Of a stretch of 64,000 nucleotides of DNA, positions 18,301 through 24,400 are shown in pieces (the first letter of the stretch is position 1; every line of letters starts with the position of its first letter). The position numbers and the translations under genes were made by a program. The notes beneath the pieces were generated by a model. The model searched no databases, was not told the origin of the DNA, and worked only from the letters and a program-made list of their open reading frames with translations. Origin of the DNA: Apostichopus japonicus (taxonomy: Eukaryota; Echinodermata; Holothuroidea; Aspidochirotida; Stichopodidae); assembly GCF_037975245.1 (NCBI RefSeq), contig NC_092583.1, positions 5,303,264 to 5,367,263 of the forward strand. The letters are read 5' to 3'.

Positions 18301-21300
18301 GTGTACCATGTACAAACATCATGTCTTCTGGCTTTAGCTTGAGTTGACTGTTTCCTACATTTGTCCAGCCACTGATGGGATTTACCAAAATGTAACTTTG
18401 TGTCATGCTCTGTCTTTGAGTATTTCTGCTTCTCTTGTGAAAATGAAAAAATGGAAATAGCTTTGTTTCTCTCTGTAACTTTGACAAATAGTATGACAGT
18501 GAACCAAACATTTGAGGATCGTTACAAGTATAGCTATTTAATGAATTCACATGTAATGGTTTACTGTGGTCTTTGCTACAAGAGAGTAGAGCTGAACCTG
18601 CAGGTAGTGTGTTTTAGAGTAGTACCTATAAGTATTGATAAATACATAGTACATGCAGGTAATATGTAGTGGAGTAGCACCTGCAGGTAATGTCTAGTGA
18701 AGTAGCACCTGCGGGTATGTGTAGTAAGTAGCACCTACAGGTAATGTGTAGTGGAGTTGTACATGCAGGTAATATGTAGTGGAGTAGCACCTGCAGGTAA
18801 TGTAGTGGAGTAGCACCTTCAGGTAATATGTAGTAAAGTAGCACCTTCAGGTAATGTAAAGTGGAGTAGTACATGCAGGTATGTGCATGTAGTAAGTAGC
18901 TCCTGCAGTTAATGTGTAGTGGAGTAGTACATGCAGGTAAGATGTAGTGGAGTAGCATCTTCATGTAATTTGTAGTGGATTAGTACATGCAGGTAATATG
19001 TAGTGGAATAGCACCTGCAGATATACATGCAGGTAATATGTAGTGGAGTAGTACCTGCAGGTAATATGTAGTGGAGTAGTACCTGCAGGTAATATAGTAT
19101 GTAGTGGAGTATGTTAAGTGGAGTAGTACATGCAGGTAATACTGTATGTAGTGCAGTAGCACCTGCAGGTAACATGTAGTGGAGTAGTACCTGCAGATAA
19201 TGGACATTCTGCTCATTTCTTTTTTTTCTTTCAATATCAGCTATTTTACATTCTAATTGTAATTTTACTCCTCATTTTTTTTTAGGAGTCAGCCATCTTG
19301 GTTTTCCTGTCTTCGTCTTCTCTTCTCCATCGATCATAAACTTTTGGAGATCCATCAAGTCATTGCTTTGAGGGCTGTTCTCACAGAAGATAGCAACGAA
19401 ACCAAGGAACTTGCAGAATCTAAACTGGAATTCTTTCGTGAAGTTTGTGATACATATCTCAAATTAAGACAGGTCAGTCATGACATTATAAAGTGACCTC
19501 TTCTGAGTATTTGGCCTACTCGTATAAAGGTGTACTGTACTGTATGTAGACAGCCATGTGAGATCCTGGCTGAAGAAGCATTTGTTTGAAATCTTTAAAT
19601 GGTGGGGAATCAGCATCAAGATTGCATCTCCACAAATAATAAACTATTTGTAGTAAACCACCAAATATAGAAAGGATGAAAAGAATGGGAGCTTGTTACT
19701 AGCAAGGTTGGTAATTAATACAGATTAAATATAAATGTTAGAAATAATGTTGTTTCAAGTGTTGAATAAAACTAAATGTGAATTGGTATTAGCAAAGGAG
19801 TGTTAATTGATTTGTTTGTCGATAAATTTGAAAATTGAAAGACAATTTTTTGAACGACACTTGGGCCAATGAGTAGGCCAAAGTCTTCTTCCTGACCCTT
19901 TAACAGTGGTGTTGGGATGCGGTGTGAGACTACAATATTATGTCTACTGAAGTAGCAGGGCAATAAGCTAGCCAAATGCTTCATAAAGCTCTTAATAAAG
20001 GACTGGGAGTATGAGGCATGAACCCAAGATTGGTGATGTGATAAGTAAACTGACCTCTGATGTTGCTCACGTAATTTTCTGAATAGTGCAGTCATGAGTT
20101 TTCTATGTTGTGTTACTTTGGGAAGCATTCCTCATTGACTAAATTTTCTCTATTTAATGGCGAGATTTTCTGCCATATTTGTTGGCAATCAAAAAGATGT
20201 CTGATGTATTTCAAGCAAGCATATTCAACCCGTCCTGAATAATTTAATGATGATTTATAGCTTCTTACAGAATAATGTTGTCAAAGTGAGAAGTCATCAG
20301 TTAGTCATCAACATTAAAAATTAAAATCTAAATAATCTTTACTTTGCATGTATCAAAATTATTTAATGGAAGTTGGGGGACAGGGTGTTAAAGATGTTTT
20401 CCTTTTCATAAGTTGAATGACAAACCACCAAATTTAGTGTCATCCATGTTTTTTATCTTTTCAGTTTCCTAAATTTTGTGACTTCTTGATTAAGTGTTGC
20501 TCACTGGAATCACCAAGAGGAAAACTGATGTTTCCTGCAAGGTATCTGGCAGAGTAAGTTGAAGCATTGGTCTGTATGAAGCATTTATAGTTGTTTGTGA
20601 GAATGATTGATATTATTTGTATGCTCTTGAAGCATTGGTCTGTATGAAGCATTTATAGTTGTTTGTGAGAATGATTAATGTTATTTGTATGCTCTTGAAG
20701 CATTGGTCGATATGAGGCATTTATAGTTGTTTGTGAGAACGATTGATATTATGTTTATGCACTTGAAGCATTGGTCTGTATGAAGCATTTATAGTTGTTT
20801 GTGAGAATGATTGATATTATTTGTATGCACTTGAAGCATTGGTCTGTATGAAGCATTTATAGTTGTTTGTGAGAATGATTGATATTATTTGTATGTTCTT
20901 GTCAAATTTAATGAGACAACAATTCCTGTGTTTTATTCAATCATCAAAGTAGTGAATAGTAGCCTAGGGTTGCTTTACTGAACAGACTGTTTCTTTTGCA
21001 TTGAATTATTCTGTCGGTAATGTTACCTTTTTTTGGCTTAGTTGCTATCTTTTCAACTTCATGGGCTATATTTTCAGCCGATTTTTTTTAAATTCAATAT
21101 TCAAATAGATTCTTTAATAACCCCATAATTAACATTCATCTAATGAGAAAAGTGTGTAGTCTATCTAAAGTAATCAATTATAATCTAATTGTTTTCTTTG
21201 CTTATAACTTCATGTGTTGCTTGTGTTGTTGTCTTTTGAAGGACAAGGAACAAGTTCACATATAATTTCTTTTAATATCTTAGCAATATATGGCTTGAAC

Positions 21301-21463
21301 AGCGTAGAATGATTTTACATGATGAATGAATGAGTACTTTACAGTAGGAATGTAATTATCCTGATATATATATATATATATATATGGCTTTAACAGTATA
21401 GAATGATTTCACATGATGAATGAATACTTTATAGTAGGAATGTAATTATCATTAATTATTAAA

Positions 21464-21494
<31 letters not shown>

Positions 21495-24400
21495 ATCCCG
21501 GTGGAGGCTGAAAGTTTTTTCACTGTTCTTGATTTTCCAACTCATTACGATTTTCATTTATATATATTCATTTGCCTTTGTCGTTTACCTCCATTGCATT
21601 AACATAAAGTCTGTTCAAAGTATCTCTTTCGAGATCCGGCTTTAGGAATCACAAATGATTTTCGAGTTGGTTAGCATCATGTTTGATCTCTAGAGTAAGG
21701 CAAAATATGTCACCAAAAACAGAACTAGTATTGTTCGATACAGGTGACAAACGCCTACAGTGGAATTACGATCTTCCTTACCGGTTTCGAACCTCTGGAC
21801 ATACAATCAGCGTCCATAGCCTAGTGGTTAGGGTGTCCGCGTACAGAGCGGGAGGCCCGTGGTTCGAATCCCGGTGGAGGCTGAAAGTTTTTTCACTGTT
21901 CTTGATTTTCCAACTCATTACGATTTTCATTTATATATATATATATAAATCAATAAAGAATAACACACCAGAATTTCTTGATATTCTTCATTGATTTATA
22001 TATTTAAGTTACTAGTTTTCGCCGACAAATCTAGGAACATGTACAAAATGGACCCAAACGCATACAACAAGATCCTCAGCGAAAATATAACGACAAAGTA
22101 CAAGCATGCAGACCCCGGTACTTCGGACAGCATATCCACTGAGTTCGTCAAAATATCAAATGAGCTGGATATCTCTGACAGAATCGGCAAGTCGGTTGAA
22201 ACTCCTGCATACATCACACTGAAAGACCACAAAGACGACTTCACCAGCCGCCCAACCTGCAGACTAATCAACCCATCAAAAAGCGAGATGGGCAGAGTGA
22301 GTAAGCACATGTTAGACCGCATTAACACCAACCTAAGGAAACGACTACAGGTCAACCAATGGCGCAGCACCCCTGCTGTTTTAGAATGGTTCTCAGCTCT
22401 GAAGGATAAAGCGCACCTCTCATTCATGATCTTCGACATCGTTGACTTTTATCCTTCCATCACCAAAGAGCTACTCAGCAAATCACTATCATAGGCCCGC
22501 CAGTATACCCCTATCCAGGACACCATCATGCACGCCAGAAAGTCCCTCTTATACGATCTCGTGGGACGCCCTTGGGTAAAAAAGGCCACCACAGATGCCT
22601 TTGACGTCACTATGGGCGGTTACGACGGAGCTGAAGTCTGTGAGCTGGTGGGCTTGTACATCCTTCATAAGTTAGGTGATCTCATCGACTCGCACGATAT
22701 TGGCCTCTACAGAGACGATGGTCTAGCTGTACTCAGGAACCACTCGGGCAGCCAAGCGGATAGAATGCGGAAACGTATCGTAGCAGCCTTTCATACCTTC
22801 GGTCTAAAGATAACCACCCAAGCCAACATTAAGACCGTTAACTACCTCGACGCTACGCTGGACCTATGCACCGGCACACATCGCCCATTCCGTAAGCCTA
22901 ATGACCAACCCATATATGTTCACTGCCTCTCCAACCACCCCCCAGAAGTCACCAAACGTATTCCAGAGAGTATCAGCAACAGGATCTCCACTCTTTCATC
23001 TAACGAAGAGATCTTTGACAACGCTGCCCCCATATACAATGATGCGCTCCGAGATAGCGGCTATATCGACCACCTAGTATACAACAACAGTACGGAGAGC
23101 AGCAGGAAGCAACCCAGAAAGAAACCCCGTACCAGGAACATAATATGGTTTAACCCACCTTACAGCCGTAATGTCAAATCTAATGTGGGGAAATTGTTTT
23201 TCAGACTACTCGCCAAGCACTTCCCGAAAGGAAATAAGCTCCACAAAATTTTCAACAAAAACAACGTGAAATTGAGTTACAGTTGTGTGGGCAACATGCG
23301 ATCAATCATCAACAGCCACAATAACCGGCTTTTAACACAAAACAAGCTTAGACCGCAACAGGCTCAACGCATATGCAATTGTAGAGAAAAACTTAATTGC
23401 CCCCTCAACGGGAATTGCTTGGTGAGCAGTGTAATATATAGGGCCGATGTTACCACTGGTGATGACACCAAATCATACATAGGGCTATCGAGTGGCCCCT
23501 TTAAGCAAAGGTACAGTAACCACAGTAAGTCCTTCCGCCATGAGCGTTACGAGAAAGAAACAGAGCTTTCCAAACATATATGGGACCTGAAGCGTAAGGG
23601 TGCCCCCTTCGTTATTGAGTGGAGCGTACTTAAGCATTCCAATACACGCATGCGTAGATCCGGTCAATGTAACCTTTGTATTGATGAGAAGCTTTGTATC
23701 CTCCTGTCCAAAAACCCGCATTTACTCAATAAGAGATCTGAATTCATCTCCAAGTGTGGCCACAATAGGCTCAAACCAATGAACCGTGCACGTAAGAAAT
23801 AGGGTTCGTGTTTCCCATAGAATATATCCGCGCAGCGAGTATTTGTTCAGTTGTCTGACGATCGCCACCCTAAGGGCGTGAAACTCCGAGTAACAGCTGT
23901 ACTTACCAAGGCATCTACTTATATATATATATATATATATATATATAGGTTTAACAGTGTAGAATGTTTTCACATGATGAATGAATGAATACTTTACAGT
24001 AGGAATGTAATTACCCTTCCCTTTTCTTTTTCGTTTGTGTTTTTTTAAGTTTGATGACATCGAATGACAAGTAACTAACTTTTCTTGATCAATTAGATTT
24101 GGCAAAAATATACAGGAGCTGCCTCAACAGACATCTCTTGGGATTTGGACAAGTTTGAGAAAAGCACTGGCCAACCTGATCAGTGACCTAATTGTAAGAC
24201 TTAAAGAGGAACAGATGTCGGAACCGCCTTCGAAGAAGAAGAAAAAGCGACAACTTGTTGCTGACATTGAATCTTTAGATGATTTTGAAGGCTTAGCTGC
24301 TCTCTTTGGATGTGTACTGAGGAACTGTAAAGTGATTGAATTTACATCGATACCACAAGGGGCACAGACAGTCAGAGTTGAGCTACAGCAGATAGTGGAT

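Follow-up and report, generated by a model that had tools for sequence, protein, structure and literature searches.

We found that the 64,000-nt stretch of Apostichopus japonicus DNA analyzed here (the window) carries a 52-nt motif that is likely, in our judgment, to be a minimal type I hammerhead ribozyme, present as the 3′ copy in the pseudo-LTR (pLTR) of a Penelope-like element (PLE), for which we propose a cleavage scheme. The motif is real, and its letters match those described in an earlier reading made from the sequence alone (the sequence-only reading). Among described elements it is a PLE minimal hammerhead, a kind that is already known. Its parts are located in the window as follows.

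23848 to 23899, forward strand: minimal type I hammerhead of family A, stem I open outward (from sequence, stem-demanding shuffles, covariance model, and covariation)
23862 to 23879, forward strand: stem II, including the basal U10.1/U11.1 mismatch (T23862 and T23879, respectively; from sequence and T-T counts elsewhere)
23883 to 23891, forward strand: stem III quasi-palindrome ACTCCGAGT, 2 to 3 bp in the monomer; two copies would form 4 + 4 bp around a C-C mismatch in a putative dimer
23892 to 23893, forward strand: predicted scissile bond, GTA / ACAGCTG (deduced from the fold; the homologous bond coincides with some ends of sister-family cDNA)

Written by parts, the sequence reads CAGTTGT-CTGACGA-T-CGCC-ACCCTAAG-GGCG-T-GAAAC-TCCGA-GTA-ACAGCTG. 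The core comprises C3 to A9 (CTGACGA, 23855 to 23861), GAAA (23880 to 23883), and GTA (23890 to 23892), and self-cleavage is predicted at this NUH site. Stem I pairs 23848-23854 with 23893-23899 over 7 bp, one being G-U, and stem II pairs CGCC (23863-23866) with GGCG (23875-23878) over 4 bp behind the T-T mismatch. In the monomer, stem III has two pairs, A-U and C-G, with T23885-A23889 possible as a third. The claim that all core bases and three stems, with a 7-bp stem I and a two-pair stem III, can be drawn in 52 nt thus agrees with the letters, the third pair of stem III being optional.

The bare core pattern alone is not special, since it matched the window four times versus 1.84 expected and 8 of 100 shuffles reached four. 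When stems were demanded as well (at least 5 pairs in stem I, at least 3 in stem II, and at least 1 in stem III beyond A15.1-U16.1), 23848 to 23899 was the sole match on both strands of the 64 kb, and none of 300 dinucleotide shuffles produced one. Rfam, run on the whole window at gathering cut-offs, returned tRNA only and no hammerhead, and its hammerhead models gave no match in 23700 to 24050 at E values up to 10; the motif does not reach the Hammerhead_1 gathering cut-off and is therefore not filed under that model. A covariance model made from the other PLE families of the genome, with family A left out, scored 23848 to 23899 at 58.9 bits (E = 7.6e-16) as its only match in the 64 kb. The covariance-model score to which the sequence-only reading had looked for a decision was thus insignificant with Rfam and highly significant with the sister families.

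The motif starts 45 nt past the stop codon of a 435-aa open frame, and the remaining features of the host element surround it.

22495 to 23802, forward strand: open frame with RT-like motifs and a GIY-YIG-like C terminus, 435 aa plus stop (motifs by eye, alignment)
21982 to 22494, forward strand: upstream part of the same frame, closed by an in-frame TAG
23893 to 23922, forward strand: pLTR remnant whose 3′ end is of the "short" form (..CTTAT running into (TA)n)
23920 to 23947, forward strand: 3′-terminal (TA)n tract, either target or tail sequence

RT-like motifs and a GIY-YIG-like C terminus, read by eye, share one ORF; the first RT motif sits in the frame preceding the in-frame stop, and the remaining motifs align in four families. 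Searches of the ORFs against Pfam and PDB sequences gave no useful match, and the AlphaFold model of the ORF (pLDDT 33.7) was uninterpretable, so that the PLE name rests on motifs and anatomy. Regarding anatomy, a pLTR, an optional tail, head-to-head copies, and an AT-rich target were all found, and published PLEs show a (TA)n or AT-rich setting, a pLTR with two 3′ ends, and head-to-head pairs (PMC11167929 and the accessible part of PMC3846280). The very short stem III, the open stem I, and the location in a PLE pseudo-LTR are those of the minimal PLE type. These data bear out the Penelope-like host that had been proposed from the letters. In the tandem copy at L054 the ribozyme stretch lies between the end of one ORF and the start of the next, and at L145 it lies between two copies. 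DNA homology to the other fetched copies reaches back to 22035, which is the start of the compared locus, and visual comparison with the family G ORF shows that some 140 of its N-terminal residues are unmatched in the window; the window PLE is a 5′-truncated copy. A 2,159-aa "open frame" at C17:2796681 (L215) was dropped for the long N runs inside it.

A protein search with the C-terminal 140 aa gave 150 scored matches, many of them below 65% identity, and 40 3′ flanks were fetched, 38 at matches of 44 to 58% identity and two (L087 and L088) at closer ones. By sequence, we assigned these flanks and the window's own to seven families, labeled A to G. The motif was present in 36 of the 40 flanks, which had been selected by protein match alone, and all 36, like the window, keep every base of the core (CUGANGA, GAAA, NUH), an invariance that is partly by construction because the collecting pattern required the core. 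In the other four flanks the motif is missing wholly or partly, by eye, rather than altered by a point change in the core: a SINE stands in its place in L064, only the second half is found in L090, and L077 and L087 show none in the fetched stretch. These four, together with chance or second matches in L085 and L076, were dropped before counting.

Among 14 representatives, both-side changes were seen in 9 of 14 pairs, including 6 of 7 in stem I, 2 of 3 in stem II, and 1 of 3 in stem III, where the covariation concerns one pair in one family and two pairs never vary. The covariation score, inflated because several rows share one family, was 0.347; shuffles gave 0.178 (none of 500 reached the observed score), and slid controls gave 0.076 to 0.143. 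Further pair types were not in excess (15 versus 14.3 in shuffles), and the outer two pairs of stem I mostly fail in the 14 representatives. Covariation across the seven families, which have 44 to 58% protein identity to the window element, therefore supports the hammerhead reading, and the aligned sequences show a common predicted fold with compensatory changes in all three stems.

Within family A, the 3′ end has at least 40 copies at 97 to 100% identity among the best 40 candidates scored in the genome (672 Mb, 35 contigs). The sequence-only reading had named absence of the motif from other copies as evidence against it; the core proved to be kept in 30 of 30 fetched family A copies and all 52 letters to be identical in 26 of the 30, the window's own copy being counted in both, although copies so alike make intrafamily conservation tell little.

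The T opposite T at the base of stem II had been called unusual and taken to raise doubt about this copy. It is indeed unusual compared with canonical hammerheads, but it is no mark of a doubtful copy: U10.1/U11.1 replaces the usual G-C pair in 36 of the 36 motif-bearing family flanks and in 29 of the 30 fetched family A copies, the remaining one (L024) having A-T. A pattern with 10.1 and 11.1 left free matched the genome 994 times, versus 5 times for the reversed pattern, and of the 100 matches listed among the 994, 99 had T-T and one had G-C. Judged by these comparisons, T-T is a feature of the lineage or group and not damage to one copy. The sole G10.1-C11.1 among the 100 matches listed, L110 (C3:4697940-4698173; stem II GTGGATCTATCCAC), possibly belongs to another PLE lineage in which the canonical pair was retained. 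Uracil has no N7. A metal at A9/G10.1 of the hammerhead has been described (accessible parts of PMC7151607 and PMC6257768), and given this site the U-U pair poses a sharp chemical puzzle.

Stem III is palindromic with an odd or empty center in all seven families, the forms being ACUC-C-GAGU, ACCC-A-GGGU, ACUC-GAGU, ACUC-U-GAGU, and ACUU-U-AAGU, and hence it is a conserved quasi-palindrome. The bases of its fourth pair are complementary in all 14 representatives (equaled by 8 of 500 shuffles), with a single replacement of C-G by U-A, in family F, and this pair cannot close over a one-base or empty loop in the monomer. We infer that stem III is better suited to a dimer than to a monomer. When two copies were cofolded freely, families C and E (two of seven) yielded the exact double hammerhead, and family G yielded the double hammerhead arrangement with A14 additionally paired to U17; for A, B, D, and F the computed optimum was another structure. 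A single 52-mer folded freely into an alternative structure at -11.4 kcal/mol, versus -9.8 kcal/mol for the hammerhead. According to the accessible part of a review (PMC7761336), cleavage of PLE hammerheads may take place in dimers.

In family G, cDNA ends were examined for footprints of RNA start and cleavage. Among the 100 matches listed, 19 neighboring pairs are 5 to 40 nt apart, all head to head, and none in another orientation is closer than 100 nt. These pairs are small elements made of two pLTRs joined by their 5′ sides, with one hammerhead each. The 3′ end occurs in a short and a long form, and 18 of the 19 pairs combine a short with a long end (16 were scored by script, and L100 and L101 were judged by eye), while the end forms of L107 were not assignable and this pair was excluded from the rule. 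The same rule was found in five of five close family A pairs (L010/L029, L013/L014, L015/L016, L022/L023, and L024/L025), from which L007/L008, 9.4 kb apart, were excluded. The shorter rows end at query base 40 to 43 in 23 of 24 cases, and at least one of them (C3:14930372) is not itself a head-to-head partner.

Between the short and the long ends, families A and G have a bulged hairpin, GCUC..GAGC, followed by ACUCU (e.g., L094, 232 to 255), and similar hairpins lie behind the hammerhead in families B, C, D, and E. The hairpin formed in 8 of 8 sequences folded, those of D and the second E being beaten or equaled by 104 and 41 of 200 shuffles, respectively; MAFFT and RNAalifold misaligned it and predicted no pairs, leaving the individual folds as its support. 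It is possibly a protein-binding or reverse-transcription start element. By eye, the hairpin is doubled upstream of the ORF in L054 and L084.

For the 5′ ends, 53 loci (19 pairs and 41 long-ended places, six shared) contained 89 arms matching the core pattern, of which 10 run on into upstream element sequence and were left out. Of the 79 counted, the two arms of one pair not being independent, 41 have their end at AGTTGT; another 14 extend one base beyond it, roughly the number that random matching would contribute, and 9 fall short of it by one base, amounting to 64 within one base. Most ORF-less family G cDNA copies thus stop at the outer edge of stem I, and the simplest reading is that the RNA has a fixed 5′ end at this edge, where reverse transcription ran off. 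The edge reads TCAGTT in families A and D and in part of G, which we take to resemble an initiator string.

At L142, two arms meet exactly at the homologous cleavage site. A search at the bond for copies with a non-native base (not T) two positions before it gave 33 candidates, all of which were read: 20 are 5′ ends by script, and the other 13 are uncut copies with a mutation. Several of the 20 carry short microhomology (..GTGGA/ACA..), so that their end could be shifted by as much as 3 nt, and L157 and L160 are doubtful. The control 3 nt downstream gave 25 candidates, with 13 ends by script and 11 by eye, L188 and L200 looking uncut. With 20 of 33 versus 13 of 25, the bond was not established as a hotspot for single-arm cDNA ends, and single ends are at best mildly enriched there. 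Elsewhere, family E yielded four candidates at the bond and family C one, of which L212 (E) and L214 (C) are true by eye.

At four loci the two head-to-head arms stop precisely at the predicted bond, with 0 to 6 nt of filler; these are four events rather than eight if the second arm was copied from the first. The control, with ends up to 6 nt further in, also gave four loci, three with one arm at the bond and one with none. A structural stop is expected before stem I, not after it, and the four symmetric junctions are suggestive of a cleavage footprint; DNA-level deletion in the palindrome could also have generated them. The predicted site is run through by 797 uncut matches, a number obtained with a pattern that allowed the native base and used as a denominator only. 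They rule out template cleavage as the normal route and leave cleaved templates a small minority. In 28 of 33 pairs the arms show no difference across the ribozyme, which makes two independent templates for the two arms unlikely and fits one source RNA, or self-priming as proposed in the accessible part of PMC3846280.

Hammerheads of another kind occur in a SINE. Among the candidates examined, 50 other places in the genome were above the Rfam Hammerhead_1 cut-off, and the 20 matches fetched (18 above the cut-off) are SINE-like, all with G10.1-C11.1, a pair that the model used favors. In this SINE (L031 to L050; L009 at 2238, forward strand; L064), a canonical hammerhead stands right behind a B-box-like string. 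ARAGORN found no tRNA beside the SINE hammerhead in 20 loci, its two hits (L031 and L044) lying elsewhere in those loci, so that the tRNA-like head rests on reading by eye. Head-to-head SINE copies were observed in L033, L040, L042, L044, and L064, with an anatomy resembling that of the PLE copies, and PLE machinery may therefore mobilize the SINE. The 5′ end of the SINE holds an inverted piece of its own tail. The window, too, has an inverted tail of this SINE, close to its PLE.

21929 to 21973, reverse strand: inverted tail of the hammerhead SINE, no more than about 60 bp before the point to which PLE homology was traced

By this tail, it looks as if SINE and PLE cDNAs had been joined head to head in one insertion. 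A tRNA-like SINE without a hammerhead occupies 21810 to 21882 (Rfam tRNA, 47.2 bits), and its last part is duplicated 373 bp apart, at 21494-21567 and 21867-21940, both copies ending TA-rich. Copies of an approximately 94-bp repeat at 21286-21456 and 23941-24017 flank the SINE and PLE cluster, which therefore appears to sit within a (TA)n-rich tandem repeat. Two minisatellites were also seen, at 18585-19201 and 20491-20969, with units of about 28 bp and 68 bp.

Taken together, these results led us to the following scheme. The RNA would cleave after GUA, chiefly when two copies pair and stem III forms between them. Loss of G10.1 would make the ribozyme slow, probably dependent on a second copy and perhaps on the element's protein. 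Judging from the ends of ORF-less family G cDNA at the outer stem I edge, the ribozyme seems to fill roughly the initial 50 nt of the transcript, with a second copy 3′ of the ORF; a cut at the 5′ copy would take off the leader, and one at the 3′ copy would separate the ORF from the downstream reverse-transcription start sites. Since nearly all counted integrated copies span the site, the usual template would be uncut and cleavage minor or late. A more specific version, which we advance tentatively and with more doubt than belief, holds that these ribozymes form a U10.1/U11.1 subclass that has lost the G10.1 metal-ligand position and acts only as an intermolecular double hammerhead at the RNA start, that the junctions are its in vivo footprints, and that PLE machinery also mobilizes the hammerhead SINE. 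If it is true, junctions with both arms at the scissile bond would let ribozyme activity be read from DNA alone. The genome has hundreds of copies whose 5′ ends record the template stop, so that existing DNA and RNA data can be used to address the question.

An unlikely alternative is that a conserved hammerhead-shaped element is kept for another job, such as promoter or initiator function, protein binding, or control of reverse transcription, cleavage having been lost with the change from G10.1-C11.1 to U-U. It would accommodate the clustering of family G cDNA ends at the outer stem I edge with its initiator-like TCAGTT, and also the uncut state of most counted copies (797 matches). However, conservation of G8, G12, A13, and A14 is not required of a structural or promoter element, whereas 36 of 40 protein-selected flanks keep every core base while their stems change, and symmetric ends fall at the predicted cleavage site. 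It is far less probable still that the window copy is a dead relic whose ribozyme was broken by the T-T mismatch: although the copy is 5′-truncated, contains an in-frame stop, and has a mismatch foreign to canonical hammerheads, T-T is the group norm, 26 of 30 fetched copies agree in every one of the 52 letters, and the ribozyme letters have stayed at the family norm even though the ORF is interrupted. Chance resemblance, in favor of which stand the four bare-core matches versus 1.84 expected and the absence of an Rfam match, has a negligible probability and is refuted by the 0 of 300 stem-demanding shuffles, the covariation, and the independent model.

We thus retain the PLE hammerhead reading and compare it with known systems. 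Minimal type I hammerheads of PLEs have reportedly been described by Cervera & De la Pena in 2014 and by Lunse, Weinberg & Breaker in 2017. A literature search found no statement on a U-U pair, a weak result because these founding papers (Cervera 2014, Lunse 2017) were not covered. In the present families U10.1/U11.1 is nearly fixed, and stem III is a quasi-palindrome. Rfam Hammerhead_1 (RF00163) has the same core and three-stem fold but does not score the window PLE motif. The Penelope element of the rotifer Adineta vaga likewise has head-to-head inverted pLTRs, palindromic junctions, and an Inr-like site (TCACT, in the pLTR), with an optional tail on one inverted pLTR, according to the accessible part of an account in whose text the word hammerhead is absent (PMC3846280).

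PAc, a Poseidon element of Anolis carolinensis, likewise has a pLTR hammerhead, two reverse-transcription start sites, and an AT-rich target (PMC11167929). Its ORF reportedly opens where stem II begins, G8 preceding the start codon, which by our reading gives PAc a U at 10.1. The PAc hammerhead overlaps the ORF start, whereas the copy here lies past the stop codon, and, unlike PAc, the tandem copies here have another hammerhead preceding the pLTR and ORF. For the lizard PLE, hammerhead cleavage was reported only with protein added, its inactivation had no effect on in vitro insertion, and no RNA-seq ends fell at the site (PMC11167929). As the sequence-only reading had stated, PLEs do carry minimal type I hammerheads, and the motif resembles those published in its pseudo-LTR location and tiny stem III (accessible parts of PMC7761336 and PMC6155905); action as a dimer, given as a possibility in the same part of PMC7761336, may be a further parallel.
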